DNA of 61,158 nucleotides. It comes from Nitrospiria bacterium (lineage in GTDB: Bacteria > Nitrospirota > UBA9217). Where the stretch lies: contig CAKKPG010000019.1 in assembly GCA_919901555.1 (NCBI GenBank), positions 1 to 61,158 of the forward strand, written 5' to 3'. Every line of letters begins with the position of its first letter. Positions within the stretch are counted from its first letter, which is position 1. The notes below the pieces were generated by a model that saw only the letters and a program-made list of their open reading frames with translations, was not told the DNA's origin and did no database searches. Position numbers and translations under genes: made by a program. This document shows, one piece after another, positions 4,358 through 13,822 of the stretch.

Positions 4358-4789
4358 TTACCTGTTATGGCAGGCCATACAGAATTGTTTTCCCGGCTCC
4401 GGTCTCCGGAGATACATGGTCTTTTCGCCGGTACGAAGGTTCACATATTCCGCATGAGGGTCGTGGCACGTAGTACACGTCATCATGCGGCGGTCATCAA
4501 GAGGAAGGTCGGGGGGGATCGTCATCGATGGCTTGATATCCACCGGGTGAGAGGAACCGGGAAGCTTGTGACAGCCGTTGCATATCTCCCCCACGGGCTT
4601 CACCATGCCCCCCCGCTGTCGCAGCCCTATTGAGAGGTGACAGCTCCTGCAGTCCATGCCATAGGCGCGAAAATCGTGGGGTTCAAGCGCGGACGGCGCC
4701 GGGGCAAGCGGGCGGGCCGGCAGGGCCGTGATCCAGAGCGTAAGGAAGATAAGGAGGACCGCCTTTGTTACGCTACCAGGTGAACCCAT
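4358..4789 (-). CDS. Periplasmic tetraheme cytochrome c
   Basis: A 143-residue protein with an N-terminal export signal (residues about 7-27, VLLIFLTLWITALPA). Four CxxCH haem c sites are visible: CRSCH, CNGCH, CTTCH and CMACH. The SHPVDI and DPHAEY segments are typical of the doubled-CXXCH cytochrome group. It is the last gene of a four-gene minus-strand operon and overlaps the preceding HAMP gene by 17 nt. It likely carries electrons in the periplasm; the partner is unknown. It pairs logically with the heptaheme cytochrome encoded two genes upstream. Confidence 0.88.
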   Translation of the reverse strand: MGSPGSVTKAVLLIFLTLWITALPARPLAPAPSALEPHDFRAYGMDCRSCHLSIGLRQRGGMVKPVGEICNGCHKLPGSSHPVDIKPSMTIPPDLPLDDRRMMTCTTCHDPHAEYVNLRTGEKTMYLRRPEPGKQFCMACHNR

Positions 4790-5354
4790 TCAACTCCTCC
4801 TTCATGCGCTCCACGGCACTGCTGAGCGAAGCGACATGCTGCGCCGAGGGACGTCCTTTCAATACCGCCCGCTCAAGATCGGAAGCCGCGGCCGAGAGCG
4901 TCTCGTGCGCGTCCTTGACCCGGACAAACTTCTGCCTCAGCCCGTTCCTCATCCCGTCGAGGTCCGATGCCAGATCGCGAAATTCTTCCCCTTCCCGCAA
5001 CGTAATACCGCTCCCCAAGTCTCCGGAGGAGACCCTCGCAAGGTCCTTCTTGAGGCAATAGAGCGGCACTGACAGCCGCTTCCACAGAGCATGGATTGCG
5101 TACACGAGGATGGCGGCAAAAAGAGCAAGGGAGATTGCGTGTGCCTGAAGCGCTGACGGCATGAGCAGTTCCGTGGTGGTCCTGATATTGATGTGCGGCG
5201 AATAGAGCACCTCTTCAAGCCGGCGGCTGCCAAGCAGGGCAAAAAGGGAAACTGCCGCAGCCGCCCATACGGTCGTCGTAACGACAAACCTGACGATAAA
5301 CCTGGTCTGGAAATCCTTTTTGATAAAATAGCTTTTTCTGCCCATCAATAGCAT
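4773..5354 (-). CDS. HAMP-domain membrane protein without output domain (copy 2)
   Basis: A 193-residue protein with membrane segments near residues 20-42 (FVVTTTVWAAAAVSLFALL) and 70-90 (AISLALFAAILVYAIHALW). A short periplasmic loop lies between them. A cytoplasmic HAMP-like module follows (PLYCLKKDLARVSSGDLG ... EGEEFRDLASDLDGM), then a helical tail. There is no kinase, cyclase or methyl-accepting signalling domain. It is the same design as the gene at 6188-6763. The cytochrome neighbours suggest a redox-linked membrane sensor or anchor; this is inference. It starts 9 nt after the heptaheme gene, behind GGAGGACC. Confidence 0.75.
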   Translation of the reverse strand: MLLMGRKSYFIKKDFQTRFIVRFVVTTTVWAAAAVSLFALLGSRRLEEVLYSPHINIRTTTELLMPSALQAHAISLALFAAILVYAIHALWKRLSVPLYCLKKDLARVSSGDLGSGITLREGEEFRDLASDLDGMRNGLRQKFVRVKDAHETLSAAASDLERAVLKGRPSAQHVASLSSAVERMKEELNGFTW

Positions 5355-5363
5355 CGGTCCTCC

Positions 5364-6191
5364 TTACTTGTCATGGCATGAAAGACACAGCATGCTCCCG
5401 CGCATCGACATCACGAGCTGTTTGCGCTCTTTGGAGTAGGGATCGTGGCACGAGCTGCAACTGACTTTCCCCTCAATTAATTTTATGGCCGGATTCAGCG
5501 CCCCGACCGGAAGGAGCCCGCCGCGGCGGGCCCTTGCCAGCATATAGTCAACGCCCACGGGGTGGCTCCCCCTCGGATCGAAACGGGAAAGGGGCGCCCC
5601 GTGCTCCCACATGCCCGATCCAACACTCTCGGCAGAGCCGAGACTCCCATCATGGCAGGACAGACATTCACGGGAGATCGGGTCCAGAGTGCCCCGCGCA
5701 CTATCGGGTTTGAACCTCATATGCGCCTTGCCCATGGTAAGGGCATGGCCGCCTGCCGGTGAGCCCTGCCTTTCCAGGCCGTGGCAGGCGGAACAGAGCG
5801 CCGCTCCCGCAACGGGACGGCGAAGTGACCTTGCTTGGGCGCCAAAAGAGGCAAGCGAAGACGCACGGGACGCATGGATATCATGACAGGTGCTGCACGT
5901 CATCTTTCCCTCCCAGGAGAGCGGAAAATCCGCCGGCAGAACCGCGTCTACCGGCACGATCTCCACGGGATGCGAGACGCCATTCTCCATCTCGCCATGG
6001 CATCGCCTGCACAGGAAGGAGACGGGCGCAACCATCTTCAGGGTTTCGCGCTTGCCTTTGACCGGCTGAGCGGCATGACACTCGGGACATTGATCTTCAC
6101 GGAACTCATGCCCCCCTTTCTGGAAGACCGTATACGCCAAGCCCGCGAATCCCAGCAGGAAGAGCGGAATCAGGAGATAGCGCTTGCTCAC
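5364..6191 (-). CDS. Heptaheme cytochrome c, membrane-anchored or periplasmic
   Basis: A 275-residue protein with an N-terminal hydrophobic segment (LLIPLFLLGFAGLAYTVF) and seven CxxCH sites: CPECH, CRRCH, CSTCH, CSACH, CLSCH, CSSCH and CLSCH. The repeated SHPVEIV and SHPVGVD segments mark the doubled-CXXCH family. The signal has no obvious cleavage site, so it may stay anchored. It overlaps the upstream HAMP gene by 4 nt, indicating coupled translation. It is likely an electron-transfer protein. Its alternation with HAMP proteins is the unusual feature. Confidence 0.88.
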   Translation of the reverse strand: MSKRYLLIPLFLLGFAGLAYTVFQKGGHEFREDQCPECHAAQPVKGKRETLKMVAPVSFLCRRCHGEMENGVSHPVEIVPVDAVLPADFPLSWEGKMTCSTCHDIHASRASSLASFGAQARSLRRPVAGAALCSACHGLERQGSPAGGHALTMGKAHMRFKPDSARGTLDPISRECLSCHDGSLGSAESVGSGMWEHGAPLSRFDPRGSHPVGVDYMLARARRGGLLPVGALNPAIKLIEGKVSCSSCHDPYSKERKQLVMSMRGSMLCLSCHDK

Positions 6192-6763
6192 GTCCGGATC
6201 TCCAAAACGGCGTGGGTCAGATTTTTCAGGTTCATATTGATATCTTGCACAGAGCGTTCAATCACCGGCGCGCTTTCCCCCCTTTCAACGAGCTGAGCAA
6301 TCGACCCCGTCTGCTTCTCGATGGCTGCGATACGGTCTTTCATGATGCTTACGCTGTCCCGGTAGCGGGAGGCCACCTGATTAAGAGACTCTGCCATGTC
6401 CGTAAGATTGTCTTTTTTCCGAAAGCGGATATTCCCTTTGAAGTTTCCCTGCCCCAGGGCTTCTGCCTCGCGGCTCAGGCGATAGGCCGGCCCTGCTATG
6501 CGGTGGGAATAGAAGAGATGGAGCACAACCACCGCCAAAGCGATGAAAACCGCCATGATCGCATAAATACCGGCGACTTTTGCGGCCAGCACCTGTTCCA
6601 TGTCGCGGATTGCGGAATTTACGGCGCCATAGCTGTCACCGAGATGAGAGGGGAGAAACAGGAAAACCGCGGCCCCGGCCAATGCTGCGCCGAGAAAAAC
6701 GATGACCACCGTGTAAATGAAGAGAAGCGGTCGGTAAGACCGTCGAGCGGAAAAGGCCTCCAT
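6188..6763 (-). CDS. HAMP-domain membrane protein without output domain (copy 1)
   Basis: A 191-residue protein and the first gene of the cytochrome operon, with an ideal AAGGAGGACC before the ATG. Membrane spans lie near residues 13-34 and 64-85. A HAMP-like segment (HRIAGPAYRLSREAEALGQG ... FRKKDNLTDMAESLNQV) and a helical, coiled-coil-like C-terminus follow. The IAGPAYRL segment resembles the HAMP linkers of chemoreceptor-like proteins, but the methyl-accepting hairpin is absent. The operon order is HAMP, 7-heme, HAMP, 4-heme. A function in transmembrane redox sensing or complex assembly is inferred. Confidence 0.75.
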   Translation of the reverse strand: MEAFSARRSYRPLLFIYTVVIVFLGAALAGAAVFLFLPSHLGDSYGAVNSAIRDMEQVLAAKVAGIYAIMAVFIALAVVVLHLFYSHRIAGPAYRLSREAEALGQGNFKGNIRFRKKDNLTDMAESLNQVASRYRDSVSIMKDRIAAIEKQTGSIAQLVERGESAPVIERSVQDINMNLKNLTHAVLEIRT

Positions 6764-6778
6764 TGCAGGTCCTCCTTG

Positions 6779-8302: not shown

Positions 8303-9130
8303 ATGAATCAGGGAAGCGGAACCGACTGCCGGGAGTTCCAGGAATTGCTTGCATATGTACAGGAATTGCGCGGTATCGATTTCAGCGCTTATCGGCCATC
8401 AACGATACAGCGAAGGCTTGCCTTACGGCTCCAGACCCTCGGGATGCCGGATTATGTCTCCTACCGTCGATTTCTCCAGGAGAAGCCGGCAGAACTTGAA
8501 TCCCTCGTTGATGCATTTACCGTCAGGGTAAGTCACTTTTTTAGAAACCCCTTTGTTTTTGAGGTGATCCATAACCTTGTCCTTCCCGAACTTATCGAGA
8601 CCTGCAAAAACGACACGCTGCGCATATGGTGCGCCGGATGAGCACGGGGCGAGGAGGCATATTCGATCGCCATCCTCCTGAAAGAGATTGCCGATAAAGA
8701 ATCTTTGCCGTCCGGAAGCTTTATCATCGCAACGGACATCGACCGGACAGCGCTCGCTGATGCTGAACGGGCCGTGTACAAAAACGAATCGCTGCTTGAA
8801 GTAAAAAATGAGCATCTCGATAAATACTTCATTCGAGAGAGCGGTAACTACGCATTAAATCATGAGATCCGGTCCATGGTGACGTTTGCCTGCCACGACG
8901 TCACCACCTGCACGTCGCCAAAAGAAGGGATATTCTCAGAGTACCATCTTGTTCTTTGCAGGAACCTGCTCATCTACTTCAACCGCGACCTGCAGAAGAG
9001 AGTGCAGAAGCAGGCATCAAGCGTATTGCGGCCGGGAGGGTATCTGGTCCTCGGCGAGGCCGAGGCCATGATTGGACCGGGTTTTGCGGAATTCATGCCT
9101 CATACGAAGATATACCGGAAAGGAAGCTGA
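8303..9130 (+). pseudogene. CheR-type protein-glutamate methyltransferase interrupted by in-frame TGA
   Basis: The frame reads through as a complete 275-residue CheR: an N-terminal helical domain (FSAYRPSTIQRRLALRL), then the SAM-binding domain with ATDIDRTALADAE and CRNLLIYFNRDL. It is split by one TGA (8639-8641) in the SAM motif, where WCAG-stop-ARGEEAYSIA matches the family pattern WxAGCxxGEExYS. The missing residue is thus normally Cys (TGC or TGT). If translated, it would methylate glutamates on chemoreceptor-like partners using SAM. The alternatives are base error, a real nonsense mutation, or selenocysteine; a typical SECIS is not evident. The kinase gene starts 5 nt downstream. Confidence 0.8.
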
Positions 9131-9135
9131 GCGCC

Positions 9136-11352
9136 GTGAAAAAATGGCTGCTCGAAAAAAAATGGCGCGCGATCCTTGCGGGGATCCTTGTGACGGCGAT
9201 GCCGCTCATCAGCCTTGCCTTGTTCGTCAATTTTACGGGGAACGCCGCGCTTGAGGAACGGGTCATAAATGAAAACAGAAATTATTCACTTCTTGCGGCC
9301 CATACTCTGGAAATGAATGTGAAGAGCCTTATCTACGCGGGAAAAGCATTTGCCACGAGGCCCCTATTGCTGCGAGATTTAAAAAGACGCGCTTATGCCT
9401 ATAAGGATACGCAAATACATCTCAAGAACCTGATTGATAATATCCCGAGCATCCAGAGGGCATTTATTACGACGCCTCAGGGGGTCCAGCTCTCCAATTA
9501 TCCGTTTACCCCTGATACCATCGGCAAGGACTTTTCAGCAAGGGACTGGTATAAGGGCGTATCGAGGAAATGGGGGCCTTACGTGTCCGAATATTATCTC
9601 AGGGCGGCGAAACCCCAGAAATACCTTTTCGCCATAGCCATACCCATAAGAGTGGAGGAACAAGTCATAGGCATCTTGGTCATGCAGCCCAAGGATGACT
9701 TTATCAAGGAATCCGTGAGCGCCCTTGATATCGGCAGCGGGCATCTTTATGTAGTGGACAGAAAAGGCGCGCTCGTCTATCACCAGAAGCTTGCCATCGA
9801 CAGGATCATTGATTATTCAAAAGTACCGGTAGTTCAGAAAGTTATGAAGGGGATGGAGGGTGTTGATAAGATCACAGACCCGTTGGATAACGTTCCGGTG
9901 CTTTCATCGTATCACCCCATGGAGGCATGGGGCTGGGGCGTGGTCGTGGACAAGCATCTGGATGTGGTCCTTGCACCGGTAAGGAAAGTGACTGTCTGGC
10001 TTGTCGTGGTGACGGGGCTCATGCTCTTCTTCGGAGGATATGCCGCCTACCGGGGGGTGGACCTCCTGGTCGAAACAGAACTGCTTGCGAAAAAACTTCA
10101 GGCAATGAATGAAGAGCAGCAGGCGATGAACGAGGAGCTTAGTTCGCAGCAGCATGAGATTGCCGAGGCGAACCAAAGGCTTGAGCAGGCGTCCCGGACC
10201 AAATCGGATTTTCTCGCCAACATGAGCCATGAGCTCAGGACGCCCCTGAACGCCGTCATCGGGTTTTCCGAGATCCTGCAGGACGAGCTGTTCGGAAAGC
10301 TGAATGAAAAGCAGCAGTTGTATGTAAAGAACATCCTCGGCAGCGGCAAGCATTTGCTAAATCTCATCAACGACATCCTCGACCTGTCGAAGGTGGAATC
10401 CGGCAAGATGGAGCTGGAACTGAGCAGGTTTTTAGTAAGAAACGAACTGAACGCAGCGATCTCGATGCTGAAGGAAAAGGCGATGAAACACGGGGTCATG
10501 CTCGGCTGTGAGCTGTCGCCGGATGCTGACATCGAGATCGAGGCGGACGAACGAAAGTTCAAGCAGATCATGTACAACCTACTCTCCAATGCCGTGAAGT
10601 TCACGCCGGAAGGGGGAGCCGTGAGCGTGAGCGCGAAATTAATTCGGAATGCGGAATTCGGAATGAAGACGAAAAAACAATTCCGCATTCCGCATTTGGA
10701 GATCAGCGTAGCTGATACGGGCATCGGCATCGCGCCCGACGACATCCCGAAGCTGTTTAACGAATTTACCCAGCTTGAATCGGCATATACCAAGAAGCAT
10801 GAAGGCACCGGACTGGGGCTTGCGCTGACGAGGAGGCTGGTTGAGCTTCACGGCGGCGTGATCAGGGTCGAAAGCGAGCCCGAGAAAGGCAGCAGGTTCA
10901 CGTTCACCCTGCCGGTGAAGCCGGCCCCGCGGCCGATACCCGTTGCAGGGGAAGATCGTCAGGCGGAAAAGAAACCAATGTCCGGGCGGCGCGCGCTCAT
11001 TATCGATGATGATCCAGGAACCCTCGGTCTCATGAAAGAGGCCTTGATGACCGACGGCTACAGCGTGTTCACGGCTGCTGAAGGAAAGACCGGCGTATTG
11101 ACCGCGAAACAAGAGACGCCGGATTTCATCGTGCTTGATCTGCTGATGCCCGGGATGAGCGGTTTTGAAGCGGTGGATATGCTGAGGTCCGACGCGAAGA
11201 CGGCGTCAATTCCGATCATCGTTCTCACGGGCATGGACCTTTCTACCGATGACAAGAAGAGACTGGATGGCAGGGTCCAATGCATCCTCGAAAAAGGAAA
11301 AATCAGGAAAGACAAATTCGCCGCAATGGTCAGGGAAGCGGTTGGCGGGTAA
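9136..11352 (+). CDS. Cache-domain hybrid histidine kinase
   Basis: A 738-residue inner-membrane kinase that starts at a GTG after GGAAAGGAAG. TM1 is near residues 11-33. A periplasmic double-Cache-like ligand domain follows (about 40-270, with PQGVQLSNYPF and RDWYKGVSRKWGPYVSEYY), then TM2 near 290-312. A Gln/Glu-rich coiled coil leads into HisKA with the phospho-accepting His in [12 protein letters not shown] (about 363). HATPase has the DTGIGI and GTGLGLAL boxes, and a C-terminal receiver carries FIVLDLLMPG. A palindromic repeat encodes about 20 extra residues inside the ATPase domain. It is in operon with CheR and the sigma-54 regulator, so phosphotransfer to that regulator is likely. Confidence 0.9.
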   Translation: MKKWLLEKKWRAILAGILVTAMPLISLALFVNFTGNAALEERVINENRNYSLLAAHTLEMNVKSLIYAGKAFATRPLLLRDLKRRAYAYKDTQIHLKNLIDNIPSIQRAFITTPQGVQLSNYPFTPDTIGKDFSARDWYKGVSRKWGPYVSEYYLRAAKPQKYLFAIAIPIRVEEQVIGILVMQPKDDFIKESVSALDIGSGHLYVVDRKGALVYHQKLAIDRIIDYSKVPVVQKVMKGMEGVDKITDPLDNVPVLSSYHPMEAWGWGVVVDKHLDVVLAPVRKVTVWLVVVTGLMLFFGGYAAYRGVDLLVETELLAKKLQAMNEEQQAMNEELSSQQHEIAEANQRLEQASRTKSDFLANMSHELRTPLNAVIGFSEILQDELFGKLNEKQQLYVKNILGSGKHLLNLINDILDLSKVESGKMELELSRFLVRNELNAAISMLKEKAMKHGVMLGCELSPDADIEIEADERKFKQIMYNLLSNAVKFTPEGGAVSVSAKLIRNAEFGMKTKKQFRIPHLEISVADTGIGIAPDDIPKLFNEFTQLESAYTKKHEGTGLGLALTRRLVELHGGVIRVESEPEKGSRFTFTLPVKPAPRPIPVAGEDRQAEKKPMSGRRALIIDDDPGTLGLMKEALMTDGYSVFTAAEGKTGVLTAKQETPDFIVLDLLMPGMSGFEAVDMLRSDAKTASIPIIVLTGMDLSTDDKKRLDGRVQCILEKGKIRKDKFAAMVREAVGG
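10638..10697. repeat. Word-type quasi-palindrome inserted in frame in a kinase
   Basis: TTCGGAAT words alternate with GCGGAA, then an A-rich spacer (AAGACGAAAAAACA), then ATTCCGCATTCCGCATT reading back. It is in frame and lies between the conserved ATPase segments VSVSAK and LEISVADTG. The same element occurs at the same site in the kinase at 27326-28672. Confidence 0.85.
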
Positions 11353-11373
11353 ATCTTGAAGCAGAAGACAGGT

Positions 11374-11398
11374 GCTCCGGGCTTGTCCGGGTCGGAGC
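11374..11398. repeat. Hairpin with CCCGGACAAGCC word
   Basis: GCTCCG (11374) pairs with CGGAGC (11398) around GGCTTGTCCGGGT. The word CCCGGACAAGCCGG recurs in either orientation near 12908, 36099 and 37447. It lies between the kinase stop and the ribosome-binding site of the next gene. Confidence 0.6.
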
Positions 11399-11433
11399 AA
11401 AGGGTTAAACGGTACTCAAGGAGATATTGTCGC

Positions 11434-12888
11434 ATGAACAACCCAAACGAACTCGGCATGCTTGTTGTGGACGACGATCCCCAGGCGCTGACCGTCGTCG
11501 AGAACATCCTTCAGGCCTGGGGCGCGAAAAACATCCTGACCGTTGACGATTCCCGCCGCGTCATGCCGCTCCTTGCCGAACGGAAAATATCGCTCATTAT
11601 CCTCGACCTCATCATGCCCCATGTCAAGGGACAGGAGTTGCTCGCGCAGATCACGGCGGAACATCCCGATATCACCGTCATTATCATGACCGGCATGAAT
11701 GACCTGGATACGGCCGTGGAGTGCATGAAAAAAGGCGCTTTTGACTTTTTGACCAAGCCCTTCCGGCAGGCCAAACTGATCGCAAGCGTGGAAAAAGCCG
11801 TGGAGATGCAGACCCTCCGCAGGGAGGTCGCGGCCCTCAGGCGTCAGGTGCTGCCCGGCGAAGTCCGGGACCCCTCGCGCTTCTCCTCCATCATCACGAA
11901 GAGCCCGAAGATGCTCGCCCTGTTCCGCTATGCCGAGGCTGTGGCCGGATCGGCCCAGCCGGTGCTGATCACCGGAGAGACCGGCACGGGCAAGGAGGTG
12001 ATGTCCAGGGCAGTGCATAACCTTTCCGGCCGGAAAGGGGAATTCATCGCGGTGAACATAGCCGGGCTCGATGATAGTCTCTTTTCCGACGCGCTCTTCG
12101 GCCACAAGCGCGGCGCCTTCACCGGCGCCCAGGGCGACCGTGAAGGACTGGTCAGCCGGGCCGCGGGCGGCACGCTTTTTTTGGACGAGATCGGCGACCT
12201 CCGCGAATCATCGCAGGTCAAGCTCCTGCGGCTCCTTCAGGAGCAGGTATATTATCCCGTGGGTTCCGACATCTCGAAGCGGACTGACTGCCGCGTCATC
12301 GCAACCACGAACCAGGACCTGCGGAAAAAGATCTCCGAGGGCGGATTCCGCAAAGACCTGTACTATCGCCTGTGCAGCCATGAGATCCATCTGCCGCCCC
12401 TCCGCGAGCGGGCAGAGGACATCCCCCTCCTGTTCCGTCAATTCATGGACGAGGCCGCGAGATCCATGGGCCTTGAGCAGTCGGACATTGTTTCGCTCGA
12501 GATCCCCGGCGCGTTGGCCGGCTATTCCTTCCCCGGCAATGTGCGCGAACTCCGGGCCATGGTCCATGACGCAATGGCGCAGCATCGGGGGGGAGCGCCT
12601 TTCACCGATTGTTTCAGCCGTCTCATCGAACAAAACAGCGGGACCGAATCCCCGGAAACCGGCGAAGACGGCCTAACCTGCGCATTCAAGCGGTTCCCCA
12701 CCCTCACGGAGATACAGGAGTATTTCGTGCGCGAGGCCCTCAAGCGCGCAAAGGGCAACCAGAGCGTTGCCGCGTCCCTCCTGGGGGTCACGCGCCAGGC
12801 CTTGAACAACAGACTGCAGCGGCGGAAAGACGTTTCAGATCCGATTTCCTCTTCCGACTCCGAGCCGGACCAGATCACGCTGCCGTGA
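11434..12888 (+). CDS. Sigma-54-dependent response regulator (NtrC family)
   Basis: A 484-residue transcription activator. The receiver spans residues 1-125 (VVDDDP, phospho-Asp in LIILDLIMPH, Lys in FLTKPF). The AAA+ domain spans about 160-390, with Walker A GETGTGKE, the sigma-54-contacting GAFTGA loop (KRGAFTGAQGD) and Walker B LFLDEIGDL. The C-terminus is a Fis-type helix-turn-helix (NQSVAASLLGVTRQALNNRL). AAGGAGATATTGTCGC sets the ATG at 11434. It probably receives phosphate from the hybrid kinase upstream. A sigma-54 promoter lies 260 nt after its stop and is a likely target. Confidence 0.95.
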   Translation: MNNPNELGMLVVDDDPQALTVVENILQAWGAKNILTVDDSRRVMPLLAERKISLIILDLIMPHVKGQELLAQITAEHPDITVIIMTGMNDLDTAVECMKKGAFDFLTKPFRQAKLIASVEKAVEMQTLRREVAALRRQVLPGEVRDPSRFSSIITKSPKMLALFRYAEAVAGSAQPVLITGETGTGKEVMSRAVHNLSGRKGEFIAVNIAGLDDSLFSDALFGHKRGAFTGAQGDREGLVSRAAGGTLFLDEIGDLRESSQVKLLRLLQEQVYYPVGSDISKRTDCRVIATTNQDLRKKISEGGFRKDLYYRLCSHEIHLPPLRERAEDIPLLFRQFMDEAARSMGLEQSDIVSLEIPGALAGYSFPGNVRELRAMVHDAMAQHRGGAPFTDCFSRLIEQNSGTESPETGEDGLTCAFKRFPTLTEIQEYFVREALKRAKGNQSVAASLLGVTRQALNNRLQRRKDVSDPISSSDSEPDQITLP

Positions 12889-13148
12889 GAAGGTCTTATC
12901 AAGCCTGACCCGGACAGGCCGGAACCAAATATGCCACGAAGACGCGAAAGCACGAAGAAAAGCAGCGCCCATGACTGACACCGGTAATTTTCATTGCGTA
13001 TCCTTCCGTGTAGTACTTTAGTTTCGCCTATCCATAGCAACATTTCTTGCTCGTCCCCGTCAACAAACGTTGCTCATCCATCACATGCATTCTCCCCCTC
13101 TCCCTCTCAAGCCGTTGCTTTTACGAATATAGCACGCGCAATCGCCGC
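12889..13148. other. Intergenic region with dispersed repeat words
   Basis: No gene is seen here. It contains a CCCGGACAGGCCGG word (about 12908-12922) and CACGAAG words (12934-12957) of the same kind as other spacers. The remaining 190 nt probably hold enhancer-like binding sites for the sigma-54 activator, since the promoter at 13149 follows; no binding motif could be defined. Confidence 0.4.
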
Positions 13149-13164
13149 TGGCATAATTTCTGCA
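13149..13164 (+). promoter_or_regulatory. Sigma-54 (RpoN) promoter
   Basis: TGGCATAATTTCTGCA matches the -24/-12 consensus: GG and GC are separated by exactly 10 nt, with TGGCA intact. It is 74 bp before the ATG of the small ORF at 13238 and just downstream of a sigma-54 activator gene. It would drive the small ORF, the receiver at 13460 and possibly the substrate-binding proteins. Confidence 0.65.
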
Positions 13165-13237
13165 ATGAATTTATCCGTACCCGAATGTTGCACTAAAGCA
13201 CGGCCTTGCTTAAACAACCCTCGTTAAGGAGACTTTC

Positions 13238-13372
13238 ATGGGAAAGAACGACAATAGCGACAAAAAAGCGTACAAGGAAGGCACGAGGATCCTCGAAGAG
13301 GCTGATTGAATTGCACAACATGAGACCTATTTTCAGGCGAAAGGGAAAGAGCAAATGAACACAGCCTTATAG
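13238..13372 (+). pseudogene. Small ORF with in-frame TGA (23 or 44 residues)
   Basis: TTAAGGAGACTTTC precedes ATG. The first part reads MGKNDNSDKKAYKEGTRILE plus EAD and stops at TGA (13307-13309). Beyond it the frame continues in the same style (IAQHETYFQAKGKEQMNTAL) to a TAG at 13370. A Trp (TGG) at the stop position would give a continuous helical protein. The true gene may have been longer, since a hairpin repeat starts exactly at the end. The function is unknown. Its position right behind the sigma-54 promoter suggests it is expressed. Confidence 0.45.
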
Positions 13373-13413
13373 GTCAAGCATCTTGCTTGACTGGTCAGGC
13401 TGGATGCCTGACC
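13372..13413. repeat. Two adjacent hairpins, second terminator-like
   Basis: GTCAAGCA/TGCTTGAC with a TCT loop, then GGTCAGGC/GCCTGACC with a TGGAT loop followed by TCTTTTGG. The first hairpin recurs at 27233-27251. The second could attenuate transcription into the receiver gene. Confidence 0.6.
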
Positions 13414-13459
13414 TCTTTTGGTGAGAAGATCAGAAGTTGAGAAGATGAGTGGAGGTTGT

Positions 13460-13822
13460 ATGCCCCGGAAAATATTAGTCGTCGAAGACAACGAAAAGAA
13501 CAGGATATTGATAAAGGACATCCTGCTGTATCACGGGTATGAGGTCATTGAGGCTGAAAACGGAAAGATCGGGGTGGAACTGGCGAAACAACATCTGCCG
13601 GACCTCATTCTCATGGACATCCAGATGCCGGTCATGGACGGGTTCAAGGCAATAGTAATGCTGAAAGACGACCCGGCCACACAGGCCATCAAAATGATCG
13701 CACTGACTTCATTCGCAATGAGGGGCGACCGGGAAAAGATCATGCAGGCCGGTTTCGACGATTATATTGCGAAGCCGATCGACACGAGAAAACTGCCGGA
13801 GATTGTGAAAAAATACTTATGA
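13460..13822 (+). CDS. Single-domain response regulator (DivK/CheY-like)
   Basis: A 120-residue receiver-only protein. It has the acidic pair in VVEDNEKN, the phospho-acceptor in LILMDIQMPVMDG, the Thr/Ser switch in IALTSFAM and the Lys in YIAKPID. GGAGGTTGT lies directly before the ATG at 13460; an ATG 15 nt upstream is an alternative. With no output domain, it likely shuttles phosphate within the phosphorelay or acts allosterically on a partner. It is closely similar in style to the receiver at 20979. Confidence 0.88.
   Translation: MPRKILVVEDNEKNRILIKDILLYHGYEVIEAENGKIGVELAKQHLPDLILMDIQMPVMDGFKAIVMLKDDPATQAIKMIALTSFAMRGDREKIMQAGFDDYIAKPIDTRKLPEIVKKYL

Follow-up and report, generated by a model that had tools for sequence, protein, structure and literature searches.

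Gene organization of the locus

The window, a stretch of 61,158 nucleotides from a Nitrospiria bacterium (contig CAKKPG010000019.1 of assembly GCA_919901555.1), carries on its reverse strand four consecutive genes for two HAMP-domain membrane proteins and two multiheme c-type cytochromes. The features are as follows.

6771–6777, reverse strand: AAGGAGG ribosome-binding site of HAMP1
6188–6763, reverse strand: HAMP1, 191 aa; predicted N-in, two transmembrane (TM) helices (about residues 14–38 and 65–86) with a periplasmic loop of about 27 residues between them, a HAMP domain, and a C-terminal coil
6368–6511, reverse strand: HAMP domain in HAMP1, residues 85–132, PF00672 match; SHRIAGP motif (H87, G91, P92), R115, and D118
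6188–6191, reverse strand: 4-nt stop/start overlap of HAMP1 and the heptaheme gene, retained in most triads
5364–6191, reverse strand: heptaheme c-type cytochrome, 275 aa, GTG start, N-terminal TM anchor, seven CxxCH motifs
4773–5354, reverse strand: HAMP2, 193 aa; two TM helices, a HAMP domain, and a coil; conserved R6, Y9, and Q16 in the cytosolic N-terminus and H54 in the periplasm
4932–5078, reverse strand: HAMP domain in HAMP2, about residues 93–141, from the profile and fold model
4773–4789, reverse strand: 17-nt overlap of HAMP2 and the tetraheme gene
4358–4789, reverse strand: tetraheme c-type cytochrome, 143 aa, four CxxCH motifs

The gene order and the overlaps of 4 and 17 nt given in a preliminary description of this locus are exact by coordinates and CxxCH counts, and a 9-nt gap separates the heptaheme gene from HAMP2. 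The strong ribosome-binding site noted there was likewise found, and AAGGAGG-type sites precede HAMP1, HAMP2, and the tetraheme gene. The dedicated promoter claimed in the same description was not supported, since the single sigma-70-like site in 3.2 kb compares with 1.4 expected from shuffled sequence; sigma-54 sites 5′ of HAMP1 were absent from the scanned loci. The ribF gene lies about 182 nt upstream of HAMP1 on the same strand. Past ribF, the plus strand (window positions 8956–13822) encodes a Cache-domain hybrid histidine kinase, a sigma-54 response regulator, and a receiver protein.

HAMP1 and HAMP2 are HAMP proteins without an output domain

HAMP1 and HAMP2 are HAMP-domain proteins with the AS1-connector-AS2 arrangement and the conserved Pro, Gly, and Asp/Glu residues. 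The window copies score 19.9 and 12.9 bits against the Pfam HAMP model, below its cut-off of 25, and PF00672 is matched at E ≤ 0.01 by 20 of 36 HAMP1 orthologues (best E-value 2.3e-10) and 17 of 36 HAMP2 orthologues (best 1.5e-11). The HAMP2 family profile matches solved chemoreceptors and a sensory-rhodopsin transducer (E 1.4e-11), and the HAMP1 family profile matches a chemoreceptor (E 1.6e-5). The helix-helix-linker-helix pattern is present in the HAMP2 model (pLDDT 84), which can be superposed on the HAMP domain of Af1503 (2y21_B) with an rmsd of 2.1 and a TM score of 0.78 by target (Foldseek probability 0.94, E 1.5); this search is supportive rather than decisive, all of its HAMP matches having E > 1.

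As the preliminary description had stated, neither protein carries an output domain. Pfam matches to the MA signaling domain of methyl-accepting chemoreceptors were absent from the window copies and from the 36 + 36 orthologues, and so were matches to HisKA and HATPase_c of sensor histidine kinases. The possibility that the two are fragments of known chemoreceptors is contradicted by their common end: in dozens of loci, they stop at a similar point, at about 190–200 aa, with C-termini about 50–60 residues past the HAMP domain. Neither protein has a conserved His pair of the b-heme type in its TM helices. Fusions of HAMP1 relatives to other domains were also considered and discarded, since most of the long frames inspected either were spuriously extended upstream or encoded ordinary receptors or kinases.

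Heptaheme and tetraheme cytochromes

The heptaheme protein is predicted to be a c-type multiheme cytochrome from its multiple CxxCH motifs and candidate distal ligands. In the alignment of 36 heptaheme sequences (32–63% identity to the window copy), the seven CxxCH motifs and H28, H74, H106, H149, H157, and H210 are invariant, and H197 is present in 35. Seven motifs together with seven further conserved His residues imply bis-His ligation of every heme. Since a second His appears to be available for all seven hemes, the protein looks like an electron carrier rather than a gas sensor or an enzyme. Its single TM helix is a hydrophobic segment at residues 3–23, and H28 lies just after it.

The Pfam matches of the heptaheme protein with E up to 1 include no NapC/NirT (Cytochrom_NNT) hit, the NrfH model was matched weakly by 3 of the 36 sequences, and the CX3CH motif occurs in none of them. 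The DmsE/GSU2203 decaheme and paired-CXXCH cytochromes are its sequence relatives; however, the protein scores far under the curated whole-protein cut-offs of this broad NCBIfam group and has seven hemes with their own conserved spacing. A fold search with its model (pLDDT 76) gave no match at E ≤ 0.001.

The tetraheme protein matches positions 24–129 of the heptaheme profile with 106 bits and is evidently a paralogue of the N-terminal four-heme half of the heptaheme protein. At three loci (L073, L074, and L076), both HAMP genes adjoin and are followed by a different cytochrome, which has three hemes and matches the heptaheme C-terminal half in L073 and L074, and has five hemes and no match to this half in L076. 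Since the four-heme protein corresponds to the N-terminal half and the three-heme protein to the C-terminal half, the cytochrome family is assembled from a four-heme module and a three-heme module.

The HAMP1-heptaheme-HAMP2 triad is conserved in two phyla

A profile search of 396 Nitrospirota genomes detected HAMP1 relatives in 91 and heptaheme relatives in 59. When 65 Nitrospirota heptaheme loci were classified with one script, HAMPs were located on both sides in 50, on one side in nine (several of these being truncated at contig ends), and on neither side in six; one of the six, L238, has HAMP1 slightly beyond the distance used, which leaves 5 of 65 HAMP-less. Among the 50 two-sided loci, 49 place HAMP1 before and HAMP2 after the heptaheme gene; in the other one, both HAMPs score best as HAMP1. 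In Desulfobacterota, HAMP1-profile matches were found in 140 of 395 genomes, and 14 complete triads were present among the 40 loci read. The two phyla together hold about 64 loci with the same order, an arrangement that far exceeds chance. Recurrence of the triad with conserved order across both phyla upholds the earlier view of a real unit. Since the wider contexts differ greatly, it is the triad that forms the conserved unit, and it is close to certain that the HAMP1, heptaheme, and HAMP2 genes are inherited together.

The four-gene operon of the preliminary description is present in the window but represents one variant only: the tetraheme gene occurs in only part of the triad loci, and the conserved core is HAMP1-heptaheme-HAMP2. 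Same-family relatives carry the same genes at 38–64% identity, including two copies in one genome, one of which has no tetraheme gene, and the heptaheme gene occurs in only 4 of 14 genomes of the window's own family. At L039:9744–10110 (genome G010), one of two triads and without the tetraheme gene, HAMP2 is followed by a sequence similar to the start of a REP-type transposase.

Single-HAMP relatives are found as 5-heme cytochrome-HAMP, HAMP-11-heme cytochrome, and 4-heme cytochrome-HAMP arrangements; other single HAMPs have no cytochrome and lie near PPIase-type and exopolysaccharide-type genes. L196:3790–9583 of Desulfobacterota, an arrangement that recurs in several genomes, encodes a 5-heme cytochrome, a HAMP protein, a CsgG/GNA1162-like lipoprotein, a SurA/PPIase protein, and a 26-heme cytochrome. 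At L134:5503–7400 and L132:3436–5745, the neighbors of cytochrome-less HAMPs are a lipoprotein that looks PpiC-like by sequence and a periplasmic protein of 177–184 aa, near exopolysaccharide-type genes.

HAMP1 and HAMP2 divide the conserved residues of single HAMPs

Conserved residues were compared among 40 single HAMPs (with or without a cytochrome), 61 HAMP1, and 57 HAMP2 sequences, grouped by gene context and, for 11 rows, also by tree position. In the single HAMPs, Q16 of the cytosolic N-terminus, Tyr/Phe45 of the periplasmic loop, G91, P92, R115, and D118 are each present in 40/40 and H87 in 36/40. HAMP1 retains Tyr/Phe45, H87, G91, P92, R115, and D118 in 61/61, with Q16 in only 8/61. 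HAMP2 keeps Q16 in 57/57 and is relaxed at H87 (6/57), G91 (31/57), and R115 (38/57). Such complementary loss is the pattern expected when a duplicated homodimer turns into a heterodimer, and this division of residues that single HAMPs hold together suggests that the two proteins are obligate heterodimer partners.

The distances of HAMP1, HAMP2, and the cytochrome co-vary (r = 0.91 for HAMP1-HAMP2, reached by 0 of 500 permutations, and 0.84 and 0.82 for the other pairs), and in a tree of 173 HAMPs, many deep branches of which are weak, HAMP1 and HAMP2 are largely separate with similar inner topology; both patterns are also expected from common species history alone. We infer a physical association in which HAMP1 and HAMP2 likely form a heterodimer bound to the heptaheme cytochrome.

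Conservation, expressed as mean pairwise identity by column, is highest in cytosolic segments. The three HAMP segments of HAMP1 reach 0.46, 0.37, and 0.36, versus 0.23–0.27 in its TM helices and periplasmic loop and 0.17 in both its coil and its N-terminus. HAMP2 is most conserved at its N-terminus (0.46), followed by its connector (0.42) and AS2 (0.39), and its coil is at about 0.17–0.18. A plain anchor would not explain this constraint on the cytosolic membrane interface; the poorly conserved C-terminal coil, in turn, shows no recognizable surface on which a partner in the cytosol could dock.

H54 is present in 71 of 82 cytochrome-coupled and 3 of 19 uncoupled HAMPs. It was rejected as a marker of cytochrome partnership, since coupling switches only once on the tree and the counts are therefore not independent.

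A possible redox-responsive relay

We propose that the products of the four genes form one inner-membrane complex. The obligate HAMP1:HAMP2 heterodimer would provide four TM helices, a parallel HAMP bundle, and a short cytosolic coil. The heptaheme cytochrome, held by its own N-terminal helix, would face the periplasm and rest on the short loops of the HAMP pair, and the tetraheme protein would extend it. The putative wire of bis-His hemes would exchange electrons with cytochromes of the periplasm or outer membrane, its redox state or occupancy would shift the HAMP pair, and the pair may hand a conformational signal to the cytosol by in-trans contact with a putative partner. That the HAMP1:HAMP2:heptaheme complex acts as such a relay is a tentative proposal, whose chances we place a little short of even. 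Gene order, conservation, the conserved candidate heme ligands, HAMP identity, and the paralogue relations are shown by the sequences, whereas the heterodimer and the docking of the cytochrome are inferred from them, and the signal step and its output are the most speculative part.

The relay is favored by the conserved gene order, the co-variation, the divided residues, the cytosolic conservation of HAMP1, the separate anchor of the cytochrome, and PilZ neighbors in a few loci. Since the heptaheme cytochrome has its own TM anchor, the HAMPs are not required merely as a tether. Against the relay stand the missing output domain, the coil as the least conserved part, kinases near only 15 of 59 triads, the five HAMP-less heptaheme loci, and the seven hemes, which exceed the needs of a sensor. 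The preliminary description had offered a signal relay or a conduit anchor; both survive, and the evidence leans toward a HAMP heterodimer that passes on conformation, although its output partner was not found.

PilZ genes occur at several related loci. The window's own genome holds a second heptaheme copy (L236:1475–4524, G000:C161) in the order 13-heme cytochrome, PilZ, heptaheme, tetraheme, with no HAMP. The heptaheme frame of this copy is split in two by a frameshift or an assembly error, and the PilZ gene overlaps the 13-heme gene by 4 nt. Its cytochromes share 47–63% identity with their counterparts in L085, L095, and L105, relatives in which HAMP1 and HAMP2 are placed among the cytochrome genes; PilZ stands at the position that HAMP1 has there. 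In L085, PilZ is likewise encoded next to the module, L074 has a receiver-PilZ gene nearby, and on the Geoalkalibacter plasmid pGSUB1 (NZ_CP010312.1, L235:6262–7795) a heptaheme relative (30% identity) without HAMPs comes right after a PilZ-domain gene. These neighbors are a lead toward a cyclic-di-GMP link and no more; PilZ as a general output was rejected with only about four loci.

Kinases are located near 15/59 triads and 1/29 control HAMP loci. Two-component coupling was rejected, as this count is unconvincing over the base rate, itself an estimate, of kinase-rich genomes.

Electron transfer and other alternatives

The main alternative is that the HAMP heterodimer is a scaffold that keeps the heptaheme protein in place on the inner membrane, replacing or standing beside a quinol dehydrogenase. 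The module would then feed periplasmic or outer-membrane cytochromes, and the HAMP fold would serve only stable dimerization. Extra multiheme cytochromes near 33/59 triads versus 7/29 control loci (Fisher p 0.006, kinship ignored; the 33 partly reflect the module's own tetraheme gene) agree with this, as do the second His of each heme and the poorly conserved cytosolic coil. Clusters of a porin-like barrel, an NHL protein, and an 11-heme cytochrome surround triads in both phyla (7/59), and the occurrence of the same cytochromes in these porin-cytochrome-like clusters favors electron transfer as the main job. However, the cytochrome anchors itself, the cytosolic HAMP signature is retained in 61/61 HAMP1, neither HAMP offers a TM His pair for b heme, and unrelated genes adjoin many triads. 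We regard a pure scaffold as the next most probable, though doubtful, explanation.

At L106:4612–12270 and L212:2446–10601, from the two phyla, the triad is located amid a barrel-like protein with no Pfam match, an NHL lipoprotein, and 11-heme and other cytochromes. In the window's own genome, the barrel-like protein of L106 finds no match.

It is improbable that the stand-alone HAMPs serve periplasmic proteins in general as inner-membrane partners, acting here as adaptors for the maturation, placement, or quality control of multiheme cytochromes. The cytochrome-less relatives of polysaccharide-type clusters, whose neighbors are small periplasmic proteins and a lipoprotein that looks PpiC/SurA-like by sequence, are in line with such a role, and so is the cluster joining a 5-heme cytochrome, HAMP, CsgG/GNA1162-like protein, PPIase, and 26-heme cytochrome; on the other hand, the triads have no chaperone, each cytochrome has a dedicated HAMP pair rather than one general set, and the genes are co-inherited in strict order. 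A new quinol:cytochrome oxidoreductase with a quinone site in the TM bundle beside heme 1 is highly unlikely: the candidate ligand H28 a few residues past the anchor, as in NapC/CymA-like proteins, and the conduit context of some loci would suit it, but the heptaheme protein has neither a NapC/NirT match nor CX3CH, and the HAMP1 and HAMP2 helices have no conserved residues typical of a quinone or b-heme site.

Comparison with known systems

A near parallel to the module is found in the Geobacter chemoreceptors GSU0582 and GSU0935, periplasmic c-type heme sensors (PMC3460858) in which a periplasmic c-heme input is likewise coupled to a chemoreceptor-type membrane protein. These are, however, single polypeptides with one heme in a PAS fold and a signaling output (PMC3460858), whereas the module has seven hemes on a separate protein, two HAMP chains, and no output. 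The TM-HAMP modules of Tsr, HtrII, NarQ, and Af1503 share the two TM helices and the HAMP domain by profile and fold, but the present pair is heteromeric, with neither a ligand domain nor an output domain.

The module failed the tests for membership in the NapC/NirT, ImcH, CbcL, and porin-cytochrome systems, in agreement with the earlier statement that this is not a standard respiratory complex. ImcH is also an inner-membrane cytochrome with seven heme motifs, but it differs in its three TM helices, its resemblance to NapC/NirT, and its CX3CH motif (PMC6295460), while the heptaheme protein has one TM helix, neither of these features, and HAMP partners. CymA, NapC, and NrfH share the single N-terminal anchor followed by periplasmic hemes; they have four hemes and belong to another family, to which the heptaheme protein has no NapC/NirT Pfam match. 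Some triads, clustered with a barrel-like protein, an NHL protein, and large cytochromes, resemble the OetABI porin-cytochrome conduit (PMC10553843), the main text of whose paper mentions no HAMP protein. Unlike OetABI, the triad has no outer-membrane barrel or other outer-membrane part among its genes and is also found alone.

The open-access literature, to which our search was confined, gave no mention of HAMP proteins and multiheme cytochromes as a unit, consistent with the preliminary remark that no complex with this plan is known. The architecture of the module is new, being unmatched to every known family tested; its presumed function may prove to be a known one. Possibly, though at somewhat less than even odds, the module represents a transmembrane receptor of a new class: a separate heptaheme wire would be the periplasmic input, an output-less HAMP heterodimer the converter through which the cytosol reads electron flow, and the output would be in trans.

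A conserved module that joins a multiheme wire to HAMP helices would be an immediate candidate for the way in which bacteria that respire or exchange electrons through their envelope sense this flow. Even if it serves only as a scaffold, the module would be a widespread, unannotated inner-membrane component in two phyla, often located beside other multiheme cytochromes.
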